Assembly: GCA_026707285.1 (NCBI GenBank)
Contig: JAPOXD010000011.1
Coordinates: 62,001-126,000, forward strand
Source of the DNA: Chloroflexota bacterium
GTDB lineage: Bacteria > Chloroflexota > UBA11872
DNA length: 64,000 bases
Direction of reading: 5' to 3'
In this document: one piece after another, positions 10,958 through 21,924 of the stretch
Position numbering within the stretch: position 1 is the first letter of the stretch
How the letters are laid out: each line of letters starts with the position of its first letter
Program-made: the position numbers and the translations under genes
The notes under the pieces: generated by a model
Seen by the model: the letters and a program-made list of their open reading frames with translations, nothing else
What the model was told of the DNA's origin: nothing
Databases searched by the model: none

Positions 10958-13267
10958 CTAGGGTTTTCGATCTCCGAAAGTTGGGGCAATTCCGGTATCG
11001 AGCGGCGGGCCAAATGTCGTGACGCGTACTCTGTGAATCACGGACGGCGCGTAACCCACCTGGGTTTTCACCAGGCGTACGAGAGGATTGCCAAACGTGA
11101 GCATGAACACTTCACCGTCGGCGTCGATGCCGAAGGAACTGAGCGGTCGGTTCAGATCCGCAACCTCGAAGAGGCGCCAGCCGACGTCCGCATCGCCGTC
11201 GAGCGCAAACACTCGCCCTCGACAATAGTCGCCGAACAGATACGCCCCCTTGAGCGATTGGATTGAGCTTCCTCGATAGACAATACCTCCGACGATCGCA
11301 CAGCCATCAAGGTGGGTGTAAGAAACAATTGGAAGTTCAAAACCTGAATACTCCGGATGATCTTGGCACAAGCGCGCCGATACGATCTTGGGATCAATAT
11401 CGGTGCTATTAACGTAAATGTCTGGGCCAATGCAACGATATCCTTCGAAATACGGCCAGCCGAGATTTGCTCCCGCGGTGACTATTGACACTTCTTCTTC
11501 GCCATGGTGTCCCACGTCGCCGACCCATAGCCTGCCATCCTGCGGATCGAATGCCATGCGCCAGGGATTCCGCAACCCATAGGCCCAGACCTCCGGTAGC
11601 GCATTCGGTGCGTTCCATTGCGGGTTGTCGTTGGGAATCCGATAAGGTTCATCGGCCGATGCTTCGCGCACGTCGATGCGGATGATTTTTCCGTGGAGCG
11701 AATTGAGGTTCTGCGGGCACTCAGCACATTGACTGTCACCAATCCCCAAATACAACATGCCGTCGGGTCCGAACCTGATGGCGCCGCCCCAATGAAGTTC
11801 CGACTGCGTTGTTCTCGGAATCTCGAGGATGACCATTTCCTGCTGGCGCGCGACGATGCCATCCGCGACTGGAAAGCGTGAGAGTCGGGCGAATAGTCGG
11901 TCGTCGTCATTCTTGTCCTGGGTGGAGTAGTACACGTAGAGGAAGGGCGAGCTGTCGAAATCCGGGGCGATCGCCATGCTGAGCATTCCAGCCTCGGTCG
12001 TGTCGGAGAAGACAACGTCGGTCAGATCCAGCACCGGCTCCGATCCGAACTCGGACGACAAAACGGCGATTGAGCCCGTTTTGTCGGCCACAGCCAGACC
12101 GCCATACGGCCAGGAGATCAATTCGACGGGCTGGGAAAGCTCGATCTCAGGAATCGCGTTGGCCACCAGCAGGCGGTCAAAAGGCTCGGGCAGCGGATCT
12201 GGACCGGACGACCAGCACCCGATTTGGCCGACCTCATTGACGGCACAGGCGTTGTACCAGCCGACGCTGACTGACGTGTAGGCGCCAGGTGGACCGAACG
12301 TTTGAATTGGCGTGCCGGTTGGCCGAGCGTCCCAGCACTCCACTTGGCCGGTCGCCAAGGTGCCGCACGTGCGGTGATCACCAGCGCTGATGTGGTCGTA
12401 CGCCGTCGCCGGCGGTTCGGACCGCCCGTGGGTGCTCTGGCCCTGGCAGAGCGCTGTGCCGTCGAGACGCAGGACGCACGTATGGGCGATTCCCACGGCC
12501 AGGGCCCGGAACGGTCCCGGGCGCGAATCGGCGCGTCCATTGTCGTTTTTTCCCCAGCAGGTTAAGTCCGCCTCGGCAGTCAGGCCGCAGCTGTGTTCGG
12601 CACCGGCGCCGATGGCGGTCAGGGCCACCTCGGACGGGACGGCCGCGCGGTCGTCTGCCTGCCGTCCCCAGCAAGCGGCGCCGTCCGGGCCGATGGCGCA
12701 CGCATGGTCCCAGCCGGCCGCCACCTGGGTGAACTGGCCGTCGGGGGGATTGGCCTGCTGATGATCGTTCCGGCCCCAGCACGCCAGCGTTCCGACGGTT
12801 GTGACACCGCAGGAGTAGCGCCAGCCAGACGCAATCTGCCGAAACCTGACTTCACTCGGGACGTCCAACTGTCTGTCGTCATTGCCGCCCCAGCACTTCG
12901 CACTTCCATCGCTGCGCACGGCGCAGACGTGGTCCCGGCCGGTTCCCACCTGCACAAACGCGGACCGATTTGGCCCGGTGTCATCACGTGCGACGGTGGC
13001 GGACGGCGTGACCTGTGGCGATGGCGTAGCGGTCGTGGCCGTGGCCGGTGTCGGGCTCGGCGAGGCTAGGGTCGGCGCTCTTCGGGGCACGAACGCCGGT
13101 TGCTGCACCGCGGAATCCTCAGGCGGCAGCGACCTGGGGCTTGGCGGATCACCACAGCCGACAACCAGCAGCAGGCCCGTGGCGACAACGGCCCACAAGG
13201 TCGAGAGACCGCCGGACCAACTCCGCGCAGGAGCGCCAATGGTGACCAGGAGCGAACGGATGTTCAT
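10958..13267 (-). CDS. Lipoprotein: seven RCC1-like repeats fused to a glucose/sorbosone dehydrogenase-like propeller
   Basis: The 769-residue secreted lipoprotein has an N-terminal hydrophobic signal ending in the lipobox VVGC (C38) and a Thr/Pro/Ser-rich linker. Seven RCC1/BLIP-II-type repeats (about residues 95-390) follow, each with a paired-Cys pattern such as HVCAV...AKCWG. The C-terminal domain (about 395-740) has PQQ-dependent sugar dehydrogenase hallmarks: HWGGAIRFGPDGMLYLGIGD, YGLRNPWRMAFDP and VGDVGHHGEEEV. The protein likely faces outward, tethered to the membrane. PQQ binding and catalysis are not shown; many relatives are annotated only by fold. ATG at 13267 was chosen because the signal follows directly. 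The gene sits between two 153-bp direct repeats and so interrupts an older oxidase-dipeptidase pair. Confidence 0.85.
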   Translation of the reverse strand: MNIRSLLVTIGAPARSWSGGLSTLWAVVATGLLLVVGCGDPPSPRSLPPEDSAVQQPAFVPRRAPTLASPSPTPATATTATPSPQVTPSATVARDDTGPNRSAFVQVGTGRDHVCAVRSDGSAKCWGGNDDRQLDVPSEVRFRQIASGWRYSCGVTTVGTLACWGRNDHQQANPPDGQFTQVAAGWDHACAIGPDGAACWGRQADDRAAVPSEVALTAIGAGAEHSCGLTAEADLTCWGKNDNGRADSRPGPFRALAVGIAHTCVLRLDGTALCQGQSTHGRSEPPATAYDHISAGDHRTCGTLATGQVECWDARPTGTPIQTFGPPGAYTSVSVGWYNACAVNEVGQIGCWSSGPDPLPEPFDRLLVANAIPEIELSQPVELISWPYGGLAVADKTGSIAVLSSEFGSEPVLDLTDVVFSDTTEAGMLSMAIAPDFDSSPFLYVYYSTQDKNDDDRLFARLSRFPVADGIVARQQEMVILEIPRTTQSELHWGGAIRFGPDGMLYLGIGDSQCAECPQNLNSLHGKIIRIDVREASADEPYRIPNDNPQWNAPNALPEVWAYGLRNPWRMAFDPQDGRLWVGDVGHHGEEEVSIVTAGANLGWPYFEGYRCIGPDIYVNSTDIDPKIVSARLCQDHPEYSGFELPIVSYTHLDGCAIVGGIVYRGSSIQSLKGAYLFGDYCRGRVFALDGDADVGWRLFEVADLNRPLSSFGIDADGEVFMLTFGNPLVRLVKTQVGYAPSVIHRVRVTTFGPPLDTGIAPTFGDRKP

Positions 13268-13579
13268 TTCGATTGCCGGCGATTGGCTCCCAGGCTCACG
13301 GGCGCCGCCGTCGGCCAGCTCATTGGTCGCCACACGACTCCCGCCACTCGCCCGACGCGTGCGGGCCTCCCATAGCATAGCCATCATCAAGGGTGGCTTC
13401 GATGTGCAGATCACTCTTGGGTCAGGCGCCTGCGGTGTCGCCTCGCGAACGCCGCCCGATTCTTGCCTGGCCCAGGTCGGCCGCGGAATCCCGGGTCCCC
13501 ACGACGCCGAGCGACCGCCCGAGCCGCGAACCGGTGTCCATGGAGGGGCGCTGGTAACGCCACGTCATCTCGCGGGCGA
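13268..13579. other. Non-coding stretch upstream of the RCC1 lipoprotein gene
   Basis: About 310 bp with no supported gene. Its right end (from 13521) is the start of direct repeat copy B, including a relic of the oxidase C terminus reading REPVSMEGRW followed by TAA at 13530-13557. The promoter of the minus-strand lipoprotein gene must lie in the left part; no clear -35/-10 pair was identified. Confidence 0.6.
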
Positions 13580-14602: not shown

Positions 14603-14790
14603 GGCGTGCTCTTTCCCGGTCGGCCGCATCGCTTGAGTGGCCGTGGGCGAGGATAGCGGGCTCCCGGCGGAACGCGAGCCTCAGGTTCAAGCCGACGCAC
14701 TGATTCAATGGGCATCGATCGCTCGCCGGAATCGCCATATCGACACCTCGTATCTGTTGTACTCTGGCGCCCGCATCCGCCGTGGGCGAG

Positions 14791-14811
14791 AGCAGCCTTA
14801 CGAGGGCTGCT
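14791..14811 (+). promoter_or_regulatory. Hairpin directly before the ribosome binding site
   Basis: AGCAGCC (14791-14797) pairs with GGCTGCT (14805-14811) across a 7-nt loop. The stem ends right at the Shine-Dalgarno-like GAGAGGGG (14812-14819) of the Cache-repeat protein, so it could influence translation or mRNA stability. Function is inferred only. Confidence 0.35.
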
Positions 14812-14827
14812 GAGAGGGGATTCGAGC

Positions 14828-16777
14828 ATGGTGCCGACAAAGGGGTCAGTCGCCGCAATTTCCACACCAGCAAGCGCCCGGGCGGCGTTTCGCTTGGTTG
14901 CCATGGCGGCCGTCGCGGCGTTGCTCGCTATGGCGTTCACGGCGTTCGGCGCCGGGCGGGCCTCGGCGGACCACCCGGACTGCCAGTTCGTTCTCGGATT
15001 CGAGGCGGTTCAGGCCGCGATTCCGGACGCCGTTGGCGACTGCCTGGAAAACGAGAATCACGATCCCCGCGATCAAATCACGCGCCAGCAAACCACGGGC
15101 GGGACGCTCGTCTGGCATAAGGCCACCAACTGGACCGGCTTCACCGACGGTTACCGCACGTGGGCAATCGGCCCACGGGGTCTGCAGCAGCGGCTGAGCA
15201 TCGAACGGTTTGCCTGGGAGCCGGCATCGATGGCCGTTGGCGCCGACACTGAGGCAGACGCCGAGACGCTTGCGTATGTGTCCGCGGCCATCGCCACGTA
15301 CGGCGAGGACGGCCTGGAGGCCACCGTCGAGTTCTACAACAGCGAGGCGAGCATCGAGGGCGACCGCTCGCTGCTCATGGTCGACCGGTCGACCTTCCGG
15401 GTCTTGGCCGCGCCAATATTCGGCAACCTGGTCGGGGCGACACTGCCGCCCGCTCACTCACTGACACGGCTCGTCCGCGCCACGCCCGAGAGCGGCGTCT
15501 GGATCAACCACCTCCAGACGAATCCCCTGACCGGCCAGCGCGAGCCCAAGCGAAGCTACTTCGTGCTCCACGAGGGCATCGTCTTTAGTTCGGGTCACTT
15601 CTCGGTCCGCGCGGACCTCGCAGGAGTGATCCGGGAGTACGTGAGCAACGCGATTGGGCGCTACCGGACGGCGGGCCTCGACGCGACCATCGACCACTAC
15701 AACAGCCGTGCAAGCGTTGACGGCGAGCTGTACCTGTTCCTGATGGACGCCGACGACATCTATCTCGCCCACCCGATCTTCCCCCATCTGATCGGCACGG
15801 ACGTGAAGGACGTCGTGGGGTCCAACGGCTACGAGCTCGGGATCGAGATCGCCAAGGCCACCGCCGAGGGGCACTGGGTCGAGTACTTGTGGCCCAACCC
15901 GGTGACGGGTCGGGAAGAGCCCAAGACCACCTGGGTGGTGCGGCACGAGGGCCTGATCTTCGCCTCCGGCTACTACACGCCCGACCCCACCGCCGAGCCG
16001 CCGGCCTGGCTCGACGCCGACCCACGTGAGTACACCGTGGACTACGTGCAGCGGGCCATCGAGCGCTACGAGCGCGACGGCCTGGAGTCCATGACGAACT
16101 ACTACAACAGCACGGCGGCATTCGAAGGGCAGTTCTATCTGTTCGCGATGGATGCGAACGACATCTACTTCGTCCATCCGCTCTTCCCGCGGCTGATCGG
16201 CACCGATATCAAGGACGTGGTTGGGTCCGACGGCTTCGAGCTGGGCAAGGCGATCGCGCAGGCGACGGAGGAGGGCATCTGGGTCGAGTACCTCTGGCCG
16301 CACCCGGTGACGCTGCAAGAAGCCCCCAAGGTCACCTTTGCCATCCGCCACGACGGACGGATCTTCGCCTCGGGCTACTACCCCGTGGCCGACGATCCGG
16401 AGGCGCACACGATGGCCTACGTGCAGGCGGCGATCGATCGCTACGAGGCCGACGGCCTGGAGGCGACGGTTGCCCACTACAGCAGCCCAGCGAGTTTTGA
16501 CGGTGCGTCGTTCCTGTTCCTCGTCGACGCGAACGACCTCTACCTGGTGCACCCGTTGCTGCCGCAGCGGATCGGCACGGACGTGAAACTGCTGCGGGCG
16601 CGTGGGCTCGACGGCATGGTCTTCAACTACGGCGAACAGATCGCCGGCGTGACCGAGGAGGGACGCTGGTTCCACATCTTGCGTCCGTCGGCGCAGGGCA
16701 CGGGCAGCGCGGCGCACGCGTGGGTGATTCGCCACGATGGGCTGATCTTCGGGTCGGCGTACTTCGACGATGAATAG
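14828..16777 (+). CDS. Secreted protein with tandem Cache-like repeats
   Basis: ATG at 14828, with AGAGGGG 8-9 nt upstream, gives 649 residues. A long Ala-rich signal peptide ends ASA at about residue 47. The N-terminal module (48-140; CQFVLGF, GDCLENENHDP, TDGYRTW, LQQRLSIERFAWE) is a small domain common in secreted Chloroflexota proteins. Four repeats of about 120 residues follow, the last three most alike. Each has YVQxAIxRYExDGLExT, then YLFLxDANDxYLxHP, IGTDVKDVVG, WVEYLWPxPVT and RHDGLIFASGYY, the pattern of an extracellular Cache ligand-binding domain. No transmembrane anchor after the signal and no kinase, GGDEF or methyl-accepting output domain follows. The role is unknown; ligand scavenging or presentation to a sensor is conceivable. 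Confidence 0.8.
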   Translation: MVPTKGSVAAISTPASARAAFRLVAMAAVAALLAMAFTAFGAGRASADHPDCQFVLGFEAVQAAIPDAVGDCLENENHDPRDQITRQQTTGGTLVWHKATNWTGFTDGYRTWAIGPRGLQQRLSIERFAWEPASMAVGADTEADAETLAYVSAAIATYGEDGLEATVEFYNSEASIEGDRSLLMVDRSTFRVLAAPIFGNLVGATLPPAHSLTRLVRATPESGVWINHLQTNPLTGQREPKRSYFVLHEGIVFSSGHFSVRADLAGVIREYVSNAIGRYRTAGLDATIDHYNSRASVDGELYLFLMDADDIYLAHPIFPHLIGTDVKDVVGSNGYELGIEIAKATAEGHWVEYLWPNPVTGREEPKTTWVVRHEGLIFASGYYTPDPTAEPPAWLDADPREYTVDYVQRAIERYERDGLESMTNYYNSTAAFEGQFYLFAMDANDIYFVHPLFPRLIGTDIKDVVGSDGFELGKAIAQATEEGIWVEYLWPHPVTLQEAPKVTFAIRHDGRIFASGYYPVADDPEAHTMAYVQAAIDRYEADGLEATVAHYSSPASFDGASFLFLVDANDLYLVHPLLPQRIGTDVKLLRARGLDGMVFNYGEQIAGVTEEGRWFHILRPSAQGTGSAAHAWVIRHDGLIFGSAYFDDE

Positions 16778-16965: not shown

Positions 16966-18678
16966 CTATTGCTCAACGCGGCAGGTGATCACGTCGACGC
17001 CATGGTATTTGCGATGGTGGACCGAGGACGCGAAGTGCCGCAGGAGCCGTGTCGACAGTTGCTGCGCGTCGTCAAATCCCGCGTGGTCGCTGACCAGAGC
17101 CAGTTGATCTTCGATATTGCCGTCGCTGTCTTCCCGCGAATAGACCACAAGCTCCACTTCGGCGGCGTCGCCGTCAGCGTGCACCGAGGCCACCAGCCGG
17201 CGCCCGTGGTCGGACGCACTGTCGTCGCCTTGATCCAGTAGAGTGAGCACCGCCTCCTCAACTGCCAGGTTGAGACGCGTCGTTGCCGAATCGCTCCATT
17301 TGTTTTGCGACGCAAAGCGATTCAAAAACGCACCGATGTCCGCCAAGGCCGCATGTGACAAGTCGGCGTGCAGCTTGCGTGGCCAGAGCCCGCGAAACTC
17401 CGTGACCGCGGTCATGACGATCGCGGTCACCGCGCCCAGGATCACCGTGTTCCCGACCAGCTCACTCCAAATGCCATCGCTGAGCTGGCCGATGCTGCCC
17501 GCCGAGAGGCCGAGCACCAGCGATACGCCCGTGATCACGGACTTCCTATTGTTCAAGGGACCAGAAAACACCCACTTCGCGCCCTCGATAAAAAGCAGCC
17601 CGAACACCATGATGTAGACGGCGCTTACGACCGAGTTCGGCGTTGCGGCAAGAGCGGCAATCACCTTCCCAAACGGTGCGATCAGGAGCGTGAGCACGCC
17701 GAGGTAGATTCCGACGGTCCTGGCGGCAATGCCGGTGAATCCGATGTACACGGCGGTGGACGACCAGGGTGCGGATACGGGTAGCGTGGCTAGGAGTCCG
17801 GTAAGCAGCGTCGTGCCCCCATAGACGTTCAGGCCGCTTTGGATCGTCCTGAAGTCCAGCGCACGCGGCTCACGAAATGAAGCCCGCTTGATGACCGAGA
17901 GATCACCGACGACCTTGAGGAACGCCGTGAGCTTTACGATCAAGAACGCCGGCAACATTGACCAGAACCTTACTCCGAAGTCGAACTCCCACTGTGGCCA
18001 CTCGAGATCGCCAAAGCTCAACCAGGAAGCCTCCTCCACCGGCCCGCCGTCATACAGTCCCATGGGGATGGCCACGGCCAACCCCGCAGCGACAGCGATT
18101 GGCAGCGTCCACACACGGCGCGCGGCCGAGACCTGCACGGCGCCCCACAGGCCGGCGCCTAGCGCGACGATTCCCGGAATGACGACGATCGCCGACTGAT
18201 CTTCAGATTGAGCGATCGTCCGATCCACAATGAATGGAACAGCGGAAACTGCCACGAGCATGATGATGATTCCACTGACCGTGGGCGTGAATATTCGCCG
18301 CAGCGACGAGAGGCGCGAAACAAGGACGAACTGCAGGAGCGTCGACGCGATGACCAGGGTTGCCAGCAGGCCCGGACCGCCTTCGGCGAGCGCCAATACC
18401 GACATCGCCAGCAGCGGGACGTTCAAGTTCGTGACAACCAGCCCCCCCGAGCCCATATAGCGAAACGGGAAGGCGTGCAGAATCATGCTCAAGCCGGAGA
18501 TTGCCAGCCCGGTAAACGTGACCCAGGCGAGGTAGCTATCCGATTCGCCGGACGCTCGGACGACGAACGTGGTGAGCAGAATGATGCTGATCGTATTCGG
18601 AATGAAGATAAGAAGAGCCGCGCCAATCGCCTGCCGCAGGGGGGGCTTTTCCGCCGGCTCGTAACGCATATTGTTCAC
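16966..18678 (-). CDS. NCS2-type nucleobase permease with C-terminal HATPase-like domain
   Basis: A 570-residue fusion. Residues about 15-430 form a multi-helix transporter reading like the xanthine/uracil (NCS2, SLC23) family: FIPNTISIILLTTFVV, MGSGGLVVTNLNVPLLAMS, GLNVYGGTTLLTGLLATLPVSAP, and VVSAVYIMVFGLLFIEGAKWVF. The cytoplasmic tail (about 440-570) reads LHADLSHAALADIGAFLNRF, RLNLAVEEAVLTLLDQG and HFASSVHHRKYHGVDVITCRV, resembling the RsbW-type HATPase_c_2 fold of anti-sigma kinases. The N-box Asn and the glycine-rich lid are not conserved, so ATP binding is doubtful. It may be a transporter with a regulatory tail, or a transceptor. It stands alone with convergent and divergent neighbours. 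Confidence 0.75.
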   Translation of the reverse strand: MNNMRYEPAEKPPLRQAIGAALLIFIPNTISIILLTTFVVRASGESDSYLAWVTFTGLAISGLSMILHAFPFRYMGSGGLVVTNLNVPLLAMSVLALAEGGPGLLATLVIASTLLQFVLVSRLSSLRRIFTPTVSGIIIMLVAVSAVPFIVDRTIAQSEDQSAIVVIPGIVALGAGLWGAVQVSAARRVWTLPIAVAAGLAVAIPMGLYDGGPVEEASWLSFGDLEWPQWEFDFGVRFWSMLPAFLIVKLTAFLKVVGDLSVIKRASFREPRALDFRTIQSGLNVYGGTTLLTGLLATLPVSAPWSSTAVYIGFTGIAARTVGIYLGVLTLLIAPFGKVIAALAATPNSVVSAVYIMVFGLLFIEGAKWVFSGPLNNRKSVITGVSLVLGLSAGSIGQLSDGIWSELVGNTVILGAVTAIVMTAVTEFRGLWPRKLHADLSHAALADIGAFLNRFASQNKWSDSATTRLNLAVEEAVLTLLDQGDDSASDHGRRLVASVHADGDAAEVELVVYSREDSDGNIEDQLALVSDHAGFDDAQQLSTRLLRHFASSVHHRKYHGVDVITCRVEQ

Positions 18679-20406: not shown

Positions 20407-21924
20407 ATGCGCTTCAAAGAGTTGATGACGAAGATCTTCCCCGCCGGGGCGATCTTGGGCGCCCTGGTCGGCGCGGGGGTCCTGATCGGCTGTGGTGACG
20501 CCGGCGCCGGAAGCGGCCCGGCGACCGGCAGCGCAGCCGCAGGTCAAGTCGCCGGGCCGTCAGGCGGCGAAGCCGCCGGCGAACATGGCGCCGGTGGCGA
20601 ACGAGGCGGCGGCGGTGAGGGCGGTGCAGCCGGCGCTGAGGAAGGCAGCGGCGCGAATACGCTTGCGCCGAACGAGACCTTCGACGCCATCCGCGGCGGG
20701 GCTCGCCTGATCCTGAACTACGACGCTGCCAGCAACGCCTTCACCGGCACGGTCGAGAACACGACCGGCAATGCCTTGAGCCAGGTGAGGATCGAGGTGC
20801 ACCTGTCCACCGGAACCGAGCTGGGTCCGACGACTCCGATCGACCTGGCGCCGGGCGAGGTGGCGACGGTCAATCTGCCGTCGACGCCGGAATCGTTCAC
20901 CGGCTGGGTGGCGCACGCCGAGGTCGGCAGCGGAGCCGAGGGCGGCCCGTCAGGCGGTGAAGGAGCCGGCGAAGGCGGAGCGGAAGGCGCCGGCGGCGAG
21001 GGACACGGTCCCGGCGGCGATGGTGGCGGCGCCGGCAATGAAGCGGCCATGGAAGCCGCGATGTCGAGCCCGATCACCCCGCTCGATCAGCCGTGGACCG
21101 GTGTTCTCGGCGGGCTGGCGGTTTCCGCCCGCTACGACGCGGCGACCCGGTCGGTCCAGTACACGGTGCAGAACACGCTCTCGCAGGTGCAGTGCTACGT
21201 GCAGGCGGAACCGCACCTGAAGCAGGGGACGACGACCGTTGGCGAGCTTGGTCCCGACGTGCTCGGGCACCTGAGCCCCGGCCGGCAGGCAACGTCCAGC
21301 GTGTCGGTGGCCAGTGAACCGAGCCTGGCGGGAGTCGCATTCGACGGCTACGTGGTTCACCTCGAAGTGTTCGACTGCGGCGGCACGGGCCCTGTGCCAC
21401 ACACCGGCGCCGAGGGCAGCGGTGGCGAAGGCGCCGGCGGCGAGGGACACGGTCCCGGCGGCGAAGGCCGTGGCGAAGGCGCCGGCGGTGAGGGCGGTGG
21501 CGAAGAAGGCAGCGGGGCCAATACCCTGGCGCCGAACGAGACCTTCGACCAGGTTCGCGGCGGCGCCCAGCTGATCTTGAGCTACGACGCCGCCAGCAAT
21601 ACCTTCAAGGGCACGGTCGAGAACACGACCGCTAGCGTCTTGACCCGGGTGAGGATCGAAGTGCACCTGTCCAACGGCACGGAGCTGGGTCCGACGACCC
21701 CGATCGACCTGGCGCCCGGCCAGGTGGCAACGGTCAACCTGCCGTCGACGCCACAATCGTTCACCGGATGGATCGCACACGCCGAGGTTGGCAGCGGAAG
21801 CGAGGGCGGCCAATCGGGCGGCGGCGAGCACGGCGGCGGAGGAGAGTCCGGCGGCGAGCACGGTGGCCGCGGTGAATCCGGCGGCGAGCATGGCTCGGGC
21901 GGCGAACGGAGCAGAGGCGGCTAG
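20407..21924 (+). CDS. Glycine-rich lipoprotein with FxLYD-like domains
   Basis: The 505-residue lipoprotein has signal LGALVGAGVLIGC with lipidated C29. Three beta-rich domains follow, joined by Gly/Glu/His-rich linkers built from GGEGAGGEGHGPGG-like units. Domains 1 and 3 are nearly the same (LILNYDAASNAFTGTVENTT..., TELGPTTPIDLAPG, VATVNLPSTP) and resemble FxLYD/DUF3426-type folds; domain 2 (LAVSARYDAATRSVQYTVQNT) is a divergent relative with two extra Cys residues. The 3' end is a low-complexity tail. The DNA of domains 1 and 3 (20641-20950 and 21505-21812) is clearly duplicated. A two-component pair starts 140 bp downstream in the same direction, so the protein may be its output or be co-regulated with it. 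Confidence 0.75.
   Translation: MRFKELMTKIFPAGAILGALVGAGVLIGCGDAGAGSGPATGSAAAGQVAGPSGGEAAGEHGAGGERGGGGEGGAAGAEEGSGANTLAPNETFDAIRGGARLILNYDAASNAFTGTVENTTGNALSQVRIEVHLSTGTELGPTTPIDLAPGEVATVNLPSTPESFTGWVAHAEVGSGAEGGPSGGEGAGEGGAEGAGGEGHGPGGDGGGAGNEAAMEAAMSSPITPLDQPWTGVLGGLAVSARYDAATRSVQYTVQNTLSQVQCYVQAEPHLKQGTTTVGELGPDVLGHLSPGRQATSSVSVASEPSLAGVAFDGYVVHLEVFDCGGTGPVPHTGAEGSGGEGAGGEGHGPGGEGRGEGAGGEGGGEEGSGANTLAPNETFDQVRGGAQLILSYDAASNTFKGTVENTTASVLTRVRIEVHLSNGTELGPTTPIDLAPGQVATVNLPSTPQSFTGWIAHAEVGSGSEGGQSGGGEHGGGGESGGEHGGRGESGGEHGSGGERSRGG

Follow-up and report, generated by a model that had tools for sequence, protein, structure and literature searches.

An NCS2-fold permease family with a C-terminal domain descended from RsbW-type anti-sigma kinases

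Introduction

Why would a permease of the NCS2 type continue, within a single gene, into a domain resembling an anti-sigma kinase? The question is raised by a gene on the reverse strand of a 64,000-nucleotide stretch of Chloroflexota DNA (hereafter the window), for which the original prediction described a degenerate RsbW/HATPase_c_2-like tail, which could act as a partner-switch module or a nucleotide sensor, on a possible transceptor for purines or pyrimidines. Here we describe the gene, its homologues and their surroundings, and weigh the roles that its tail could play.

Results and Discussion

Gene integrity and the permease core

The gene is one intact open frame of 570 aa without internal stops (Table 1). 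Translation more likely begins at the ATG at 18667-18669, three codons in, because homologues open with the family start MRYEPxE. All 204 ORFs matching the family profile read through into the tail (the loci were picked with the same profile, so this figure carries a mild bias), tails lie nearly always within frames of more than 560 aa, several of the short exceptions touching contig ends, and the tail fold was recovered structurally (see below). A chance or frameshift join of two genes is therefore excluded. Separately, the G001 ortholog (L009 1501-3249; 95% identical) has an in-frame TAG in the core that divides it into parts of 374 and 195 residues, a candidate for either a real truncation or an assembly error.

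Table 1. Features discussed in the text, with positions counted within the window.
Feature	Position	Strand	Evidence
NCS2-fold permease bearing an RsbW-derived pseudo-GHKL domain at its C terminus, 570 aa	16966..18678	-	ORF, Pfam, fold comparison
Permease core, residues 1-430, 7+7 TM NCS2/UraA fold	17389..18678	-	Pfam, UapA profile match, Foldseek
K255, aligned with UapA E356 (TM8 substrate Glu)	17914..17916	-	Profile alignment
C-terminal tail (residues 431-570), a GHKL fold of RsbW/SpoIIAB type lacking the ATP-site boxes	16969..17388	-	Tail model, structure comparison
E474-E475, N-box position	17254..17259	-	Glu at both in 169/169; E475 aligns with N-box Glu
E509, strand before lost G1 box	17152..17154	-	167/169
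N521-x-E-D524, lid region	17107..17118	-	N 167/169, D 164/169
H555, tail strand 4	17014..17016	-	169/169, divergent bridge members included
D562, tail strand 5	16993..16995	-	165/169
Secreted protein, tandem sCache_2 domains	14708..16777	+	Pfam sCache_2, E 7e-21

The 570-aa protein matches Xan_ur_permease (Pfam PF00860) at 75.5 bits (E 4.5e-21; cut-off 27), and the family profile matches UapA at E 2e-29. Foldseek comparison of the AlphaFold model retrieved UapA (5i6c; E 4e-13, TM 0.62-0.74), with UapA, UraA and SVCT1 nearest to the core. Scores against the NCBIfam nucleobase symporters TIGR00801 and TIGR03173 (87.9 and 99.4 bits) fall far below the respective cut-offs (291.8 and 414.15).

The substrate site departs from that of the characterised members. 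The TM8 substrate Glu (UapA E356, UraA E241) is absent from the window copy, which has Lys in its place, and among 169 homologues this position is occupied by E (83), K (58), Q (20), D (4) or R (4). The NAT motif of TM10, (Q/E/P)NxGx4T(R/K/G), is absent from the window copy as well, which reads VSAPWSSTAVYIGFTG; across the 169 sequences, the position of UapA Q408 (the motif Gln/Glu) holds Ser/Thr in most members, and TM10 varies by paralogue group (NTTYSSS, SAPWSS, IIHPG and others). Since the TM8 and TM10 residues vary between groups, the paralogues probably differ in substrate. With Lys for the TM8 Glu and the NAT motif missing, nucleobase binding in the standard mode appears unlikely for the window copy, and the purine or pyrimidine specificity first proposed for it is doubtful.

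Fold and descent of the tail

A basic linker, with the family consensus RRRRL, precedes the tail, whose AlphaFold model (pLDDT 79) runs from a strand through two helices and two strands to the lid, followed by a helix and two further strands. Foldseek comparison of this model returned the anti-sigma kinases UsfX, RsbW and SpoIIAB, plus SiaB, as the 21 best PDB chains. A second structural aligner placed it on RsbW (6m37_C) with a Z of 15.9 and an rmsd of 2.1 over 112 aligned residues, compared with a Z of only ∼8 for histidine kinases. A STAS tail was rejected on the GHKL topology, the best match being RsbW, and Pfam gave no STAS match.

The HATPase_c_2 search (PF13581) that had been suggested alongside structure prediction placed the window tail at 18.9 bits (E 0.0016) in one run and 19.4 bits in another, below the cut-off of 27.4, and 13 of 70 tails gave any match at all, whereas the bridge homologue L214, which has the same architecture in another Chloroflexota family, scored above it (41 bits, E 2.3e-10). 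Profile comparison of the tail family with three canonical RsbW domains gave a probability of 96 (E 1.5e-9), while comparison of the single tail sequence with the RsbW of its own genome gave a weak match, and a PDB sequence search with the tail profile found spurious ankyrin-type matches only. The tail descends from an RsbW-type anti-sigma kinase, and the reading of this locus as one gene for an NCS2-type transporter continuing in frame into an RsbW/HATPase_c_2-derived domain has been upheld by the Pfam core, the tail fold and the intact frame.

Loss of the ATP site and new invariant residues

Alignment with the canonical RsbW of the same genome (L223 6138-6551; motifs EELGMNIMNHGYD, IDDGRPFDP and GGLGIYF) revealed that the N-box Asn, the G1 Asp box and the G2 Gly box are missing from the window tail. 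At the N-box Asn position (479, four past E475) the window protein has Thr, and Asn is found in 2 of the 169 homologues, which extend down to ∼30% identity. The original prediction was correct that this Asn and the lid glycines are absent. The loss is graded: L214 still has an Asp in G1 together with LGL in G2, and the G2 Gly persists in L210 and L211. The suggested role in nucleotide sensing is not supported in the manner usual for GHKL domains, since the Asn that binds Mg, the Asp of G1 and the Gly of G2 are lost.

A set of acidic, Asn and His residues is (nearly) invariant in the same 169 homologues (Table 1); N521 and D524 lie in a loop, residues 517-541, for which pLDDT is <50 in the full-protein model. 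In the window subgroup, pairwise dN/dS was 0.065-0.136 in the tail, compared with 0.037-0.064 in the core. On the strength of these residues and of a tail dN/dS of ∼0.07-0.14, we conclude that the tail is under purifying selection and not decaying. The term "degenerate" is apt for the loss of ATP-site residues but too weak otherwise, because new invariant residues have replaced the old ones.

Distribution, copy number and habitat

How often NCS2 permeases carry this tail, a question posed with the original prediction, was addressed by a scan of 84,980 species, in which at least 566 loci with the fusion were confirmed. The records behind the best 80 of these loci bear the labels Chloroflexota, Acidobacteria, Latescibacterota, Gemmatimonadota, Nitrospirota, Binatota, Aminicenantes, Alpha- and Gammaproteobacteria, and Acidimicrobiia, and copies per genome range from 1 to 8 among 32 named carriers. 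Carriers amounted to 2/398 genomes in the phylum of the Gammaproteobacteria record L117, 15/247 in that of the Vicinamibacteraceae record L105, 1/246 in that of the Acidimicrobiaceae record L135, 24/64 in that of the SB0661_bin_36 record L111 and 5/178 in that of the Nitrospirales record L107, each tally taking in at least one genome chosen for having the gene. The fusion family is old, spans about ten phyla and is patchy within them.

Among 400 Chloroflexota genomes, full-length tailed matches occurred only in families f1, f2, f4, f5 and f72, and the next-best NCS2 matches consisted of the core only, stopping shortly past TM14. The family is present in 29 of 61 relatives, usually in 4-6 copies. 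The window genome itself has four long copies, the window copy included, plus two fragments that lie at contig ends; as copies are broken at its contig ends C32, C29 and C33 (L004, L005 and L006 of G000), it may hold five copies instead of four. No viral copy was confirmed, and plasmid matches were to the NCS2 core only, none spanning 80% of the query.

The names of the records give some indication of habitat. Two of the best 80 loci are, by name, probably Porites lutea coral bins, and the prefixes SB06xx, jk18x, p16x and OX/OY are presumably mostly sponge data. The isolate prefixes RHO, COS, IRC, APA and CAR, found on 31 of the best 80 of the at least 566 loci, appear to fit the five sponges of a published MAG set, namely Rhopaloeides, Coscinoderma, Ircinia, Aplysina aerophoba and Carteriospongia (PMC8163846). 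We infer that the carriers, many of them uncultured, are at least in part sponge symbionts, the named sample being largely sponge with some coral metagenomes. Marine Gemmatimonadetes have been reported to carry more "xanP" (PMC11596202), an excess that may reflect this family. A search of the open-access literature, with subscription papers outside its scope, found no report of an NCS2-HATPase fusion, and the family has apparently not been described before.

Gene neighbourhood

Over the whole family no neighbour recurs: of the 81 near neighbours on the same strand, no Pfam family is represented more than three times. Local associations exist nonetheless. In the window subgroup, a tandem-Cache gene adjoins the transporter in 11/11 loci (the window, L051 and L096-L104), mostly in convergent orientation, though it lies upstream in L102 and L103, in the same or the opposite orientation; its product in the window (14708-16777) contains roughly four Cache modules in tandem and lacks an output domain. 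In 8 Latescibacterota/Gemmatimonadota loci (L108-L113, L123 and L151), an exported protein of ∼270-280 aa is encoded ∼110 bp upstream of the transporter. A Tsx-like identity, assigned to this protein by eye, was dropped, no match being found, Pfam included.

Several further arrangements were observed. A MurJ flippase gene in L128 (7971-13250) and an SLC13-type symporter gene in L156 (590-6127) each lie between two copies of the family. Elsewhere in the window are an exported protein in which repeated Gly/Glu-rich spacers separate domains of two kinds (20407-21924) and a large exported protein in which, judged by eye, RCC1-type repeats precede a PQQ sugar dehydrogenase-like domain (10958-13414).

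Possible roles of the tail

The fusion, the fold of each part, the tail's homology to RsbW, the lost Mg/ATP boxes, the purifying selection and the new invariant residues are best explained, with a probability of roughly 0.6, by an NCS2-fold secondary transporter that carries a fixed, kinase-dead, RsbW-derived regulatory domain in cis. The tail would no longer phosphorylate anything and would act as a pseudokinase that lies packed beneath the transporter, where it would serve regulation and dimer contact; the NCS2 termini and the basic linker suggest that the tail is cytosolic. From there it could gate or couple transport, possibly binding a cytosolic ligand or ion via its acidic/His/Asn constellation. 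The main argument for a common control module, one that would serve several substrates, is that the paralogues vary the TM substrate site yet keep the same tail. In the window subgroup, the neighbouring tandem-Cache protein probably binds extracellular solutes of the same class.

That constancy of the polar constellation beside a variable transport site also counts in favour of a ligand sensor, or transceptor, whose tail binds a cytosolic metabolite (a nucleotide or other) via the acidic, Asn and His residues, so that the protein signals as well as transports. The Cache sensor gene next to the window subgroup also speaks for such a role. However, the protein has neither an output domain nor a conserved adjacent regulator, and the pocket geometry of the tail is modelled at low confidence, and we consider this role unlikely.

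A purely structural tail, contributing stability or dimerisation with no signalling and with salt bridges filling the ATP site, would likewise account for lost catalysis combined with strong purifying selection, and both RsbW and NCS2 proteins are dimers. We nevertheless hold it to be doubtful, as the invariant charged residues seem more numerous than folding alone usually requires.

A partner switch, in which the tail binds a STAS anti-anti-sigma factor or frees a sigma factor and transport reports to the general stress response, is less probable still. The tail's descent from RsbW favours it, and the genome's STAS together with its canonical operon could supply a partner in trans. Against this, the kinase boxes are gone in essentially all of the 169 members, and at least four copies per genome face one standalone STAS. 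The survey of anti-sigma antagonists suggested with this proposal gave it no support: no recurrent STAS, PP2C/SpoIIE or sigma gene was found among the 81 same-strand neighbours (25 commonest families, distant phyla included), and the genome's only adjacent STAS-RsbU-RsbW set (an operon of STAS, REC-SpoIIE and RsbW) is on contig C41, away from the window. Lastly, an artefact, be it two genes fused by an assembly or frameshift error or a STAS or unrelated tail, has a negligible probability, the same unbroken frame being shared by >160 homologues that span about ten phyla and the tail fold being that of RsbW, not STAS.

Returning to the transporter with a kinase-dead regulatory domain, a broader picture can be drawn tentatively: a tail-gated family in which a dead anti-sigma control module is common to paralogues that differ in specificity. 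Such a family would have spread from phylum to phylum among bacteria that live with animals, and one of its subgroups would combine transport with sensing through a secreted Cache solute sensor. If the main reading is correct, these proteins would be a clear example of a pseudokinase that controls a transporter, and they could help to reveal what sponge symbionts of several phyla take up.

Comparison with known systems

With RsbW, SpoIIAB and UsfX (HATPase_c_2), the tail has in common its fold, topology, N-box Glu and detectable sequence homology; it differs in lacking the Mg-binding Asn, G1 Asp and G2 Gly box, in being fused to a transporter and in having no STAS partner gene. Fold and profile are common to the window protein and to UapA, UraA and XanQ (SLC23; NCS2/NAT) over residues 11-429, but the window protein lacks the NAT signature, has Lys for the TM8 Glu and possesses a folded cytosolic domain past the last helix, for which, to our knowledge, there is no precedent in any characterised NCS2/NAT member. 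The nearest tail-less NCS2 permeases found in Chloroflexota (L206, L207, L208 and L209; E ∼1e-36 to 1e-47) stop shortly past TM14 and, unlike the window protein, retain the TM8 Glu.

A parallel in architecture is provided by SLC26/SulP transporters with a C-terminal STAS domain, which have a related 7+7 TM fold and bear, at the same end as the window protein, a cytosolic domain from the partner-switch toolbox. Such domains are known for STAS, the component that serves as substrate in the switch, whereas the window tail represents the (dead) kinase side and has an unrelated fold. If our reading is correct, the kinase side, disarmed and joined to the related NCS2 fold, would have its counterpart to SLC26/SulP in a family of hundreds of loci.
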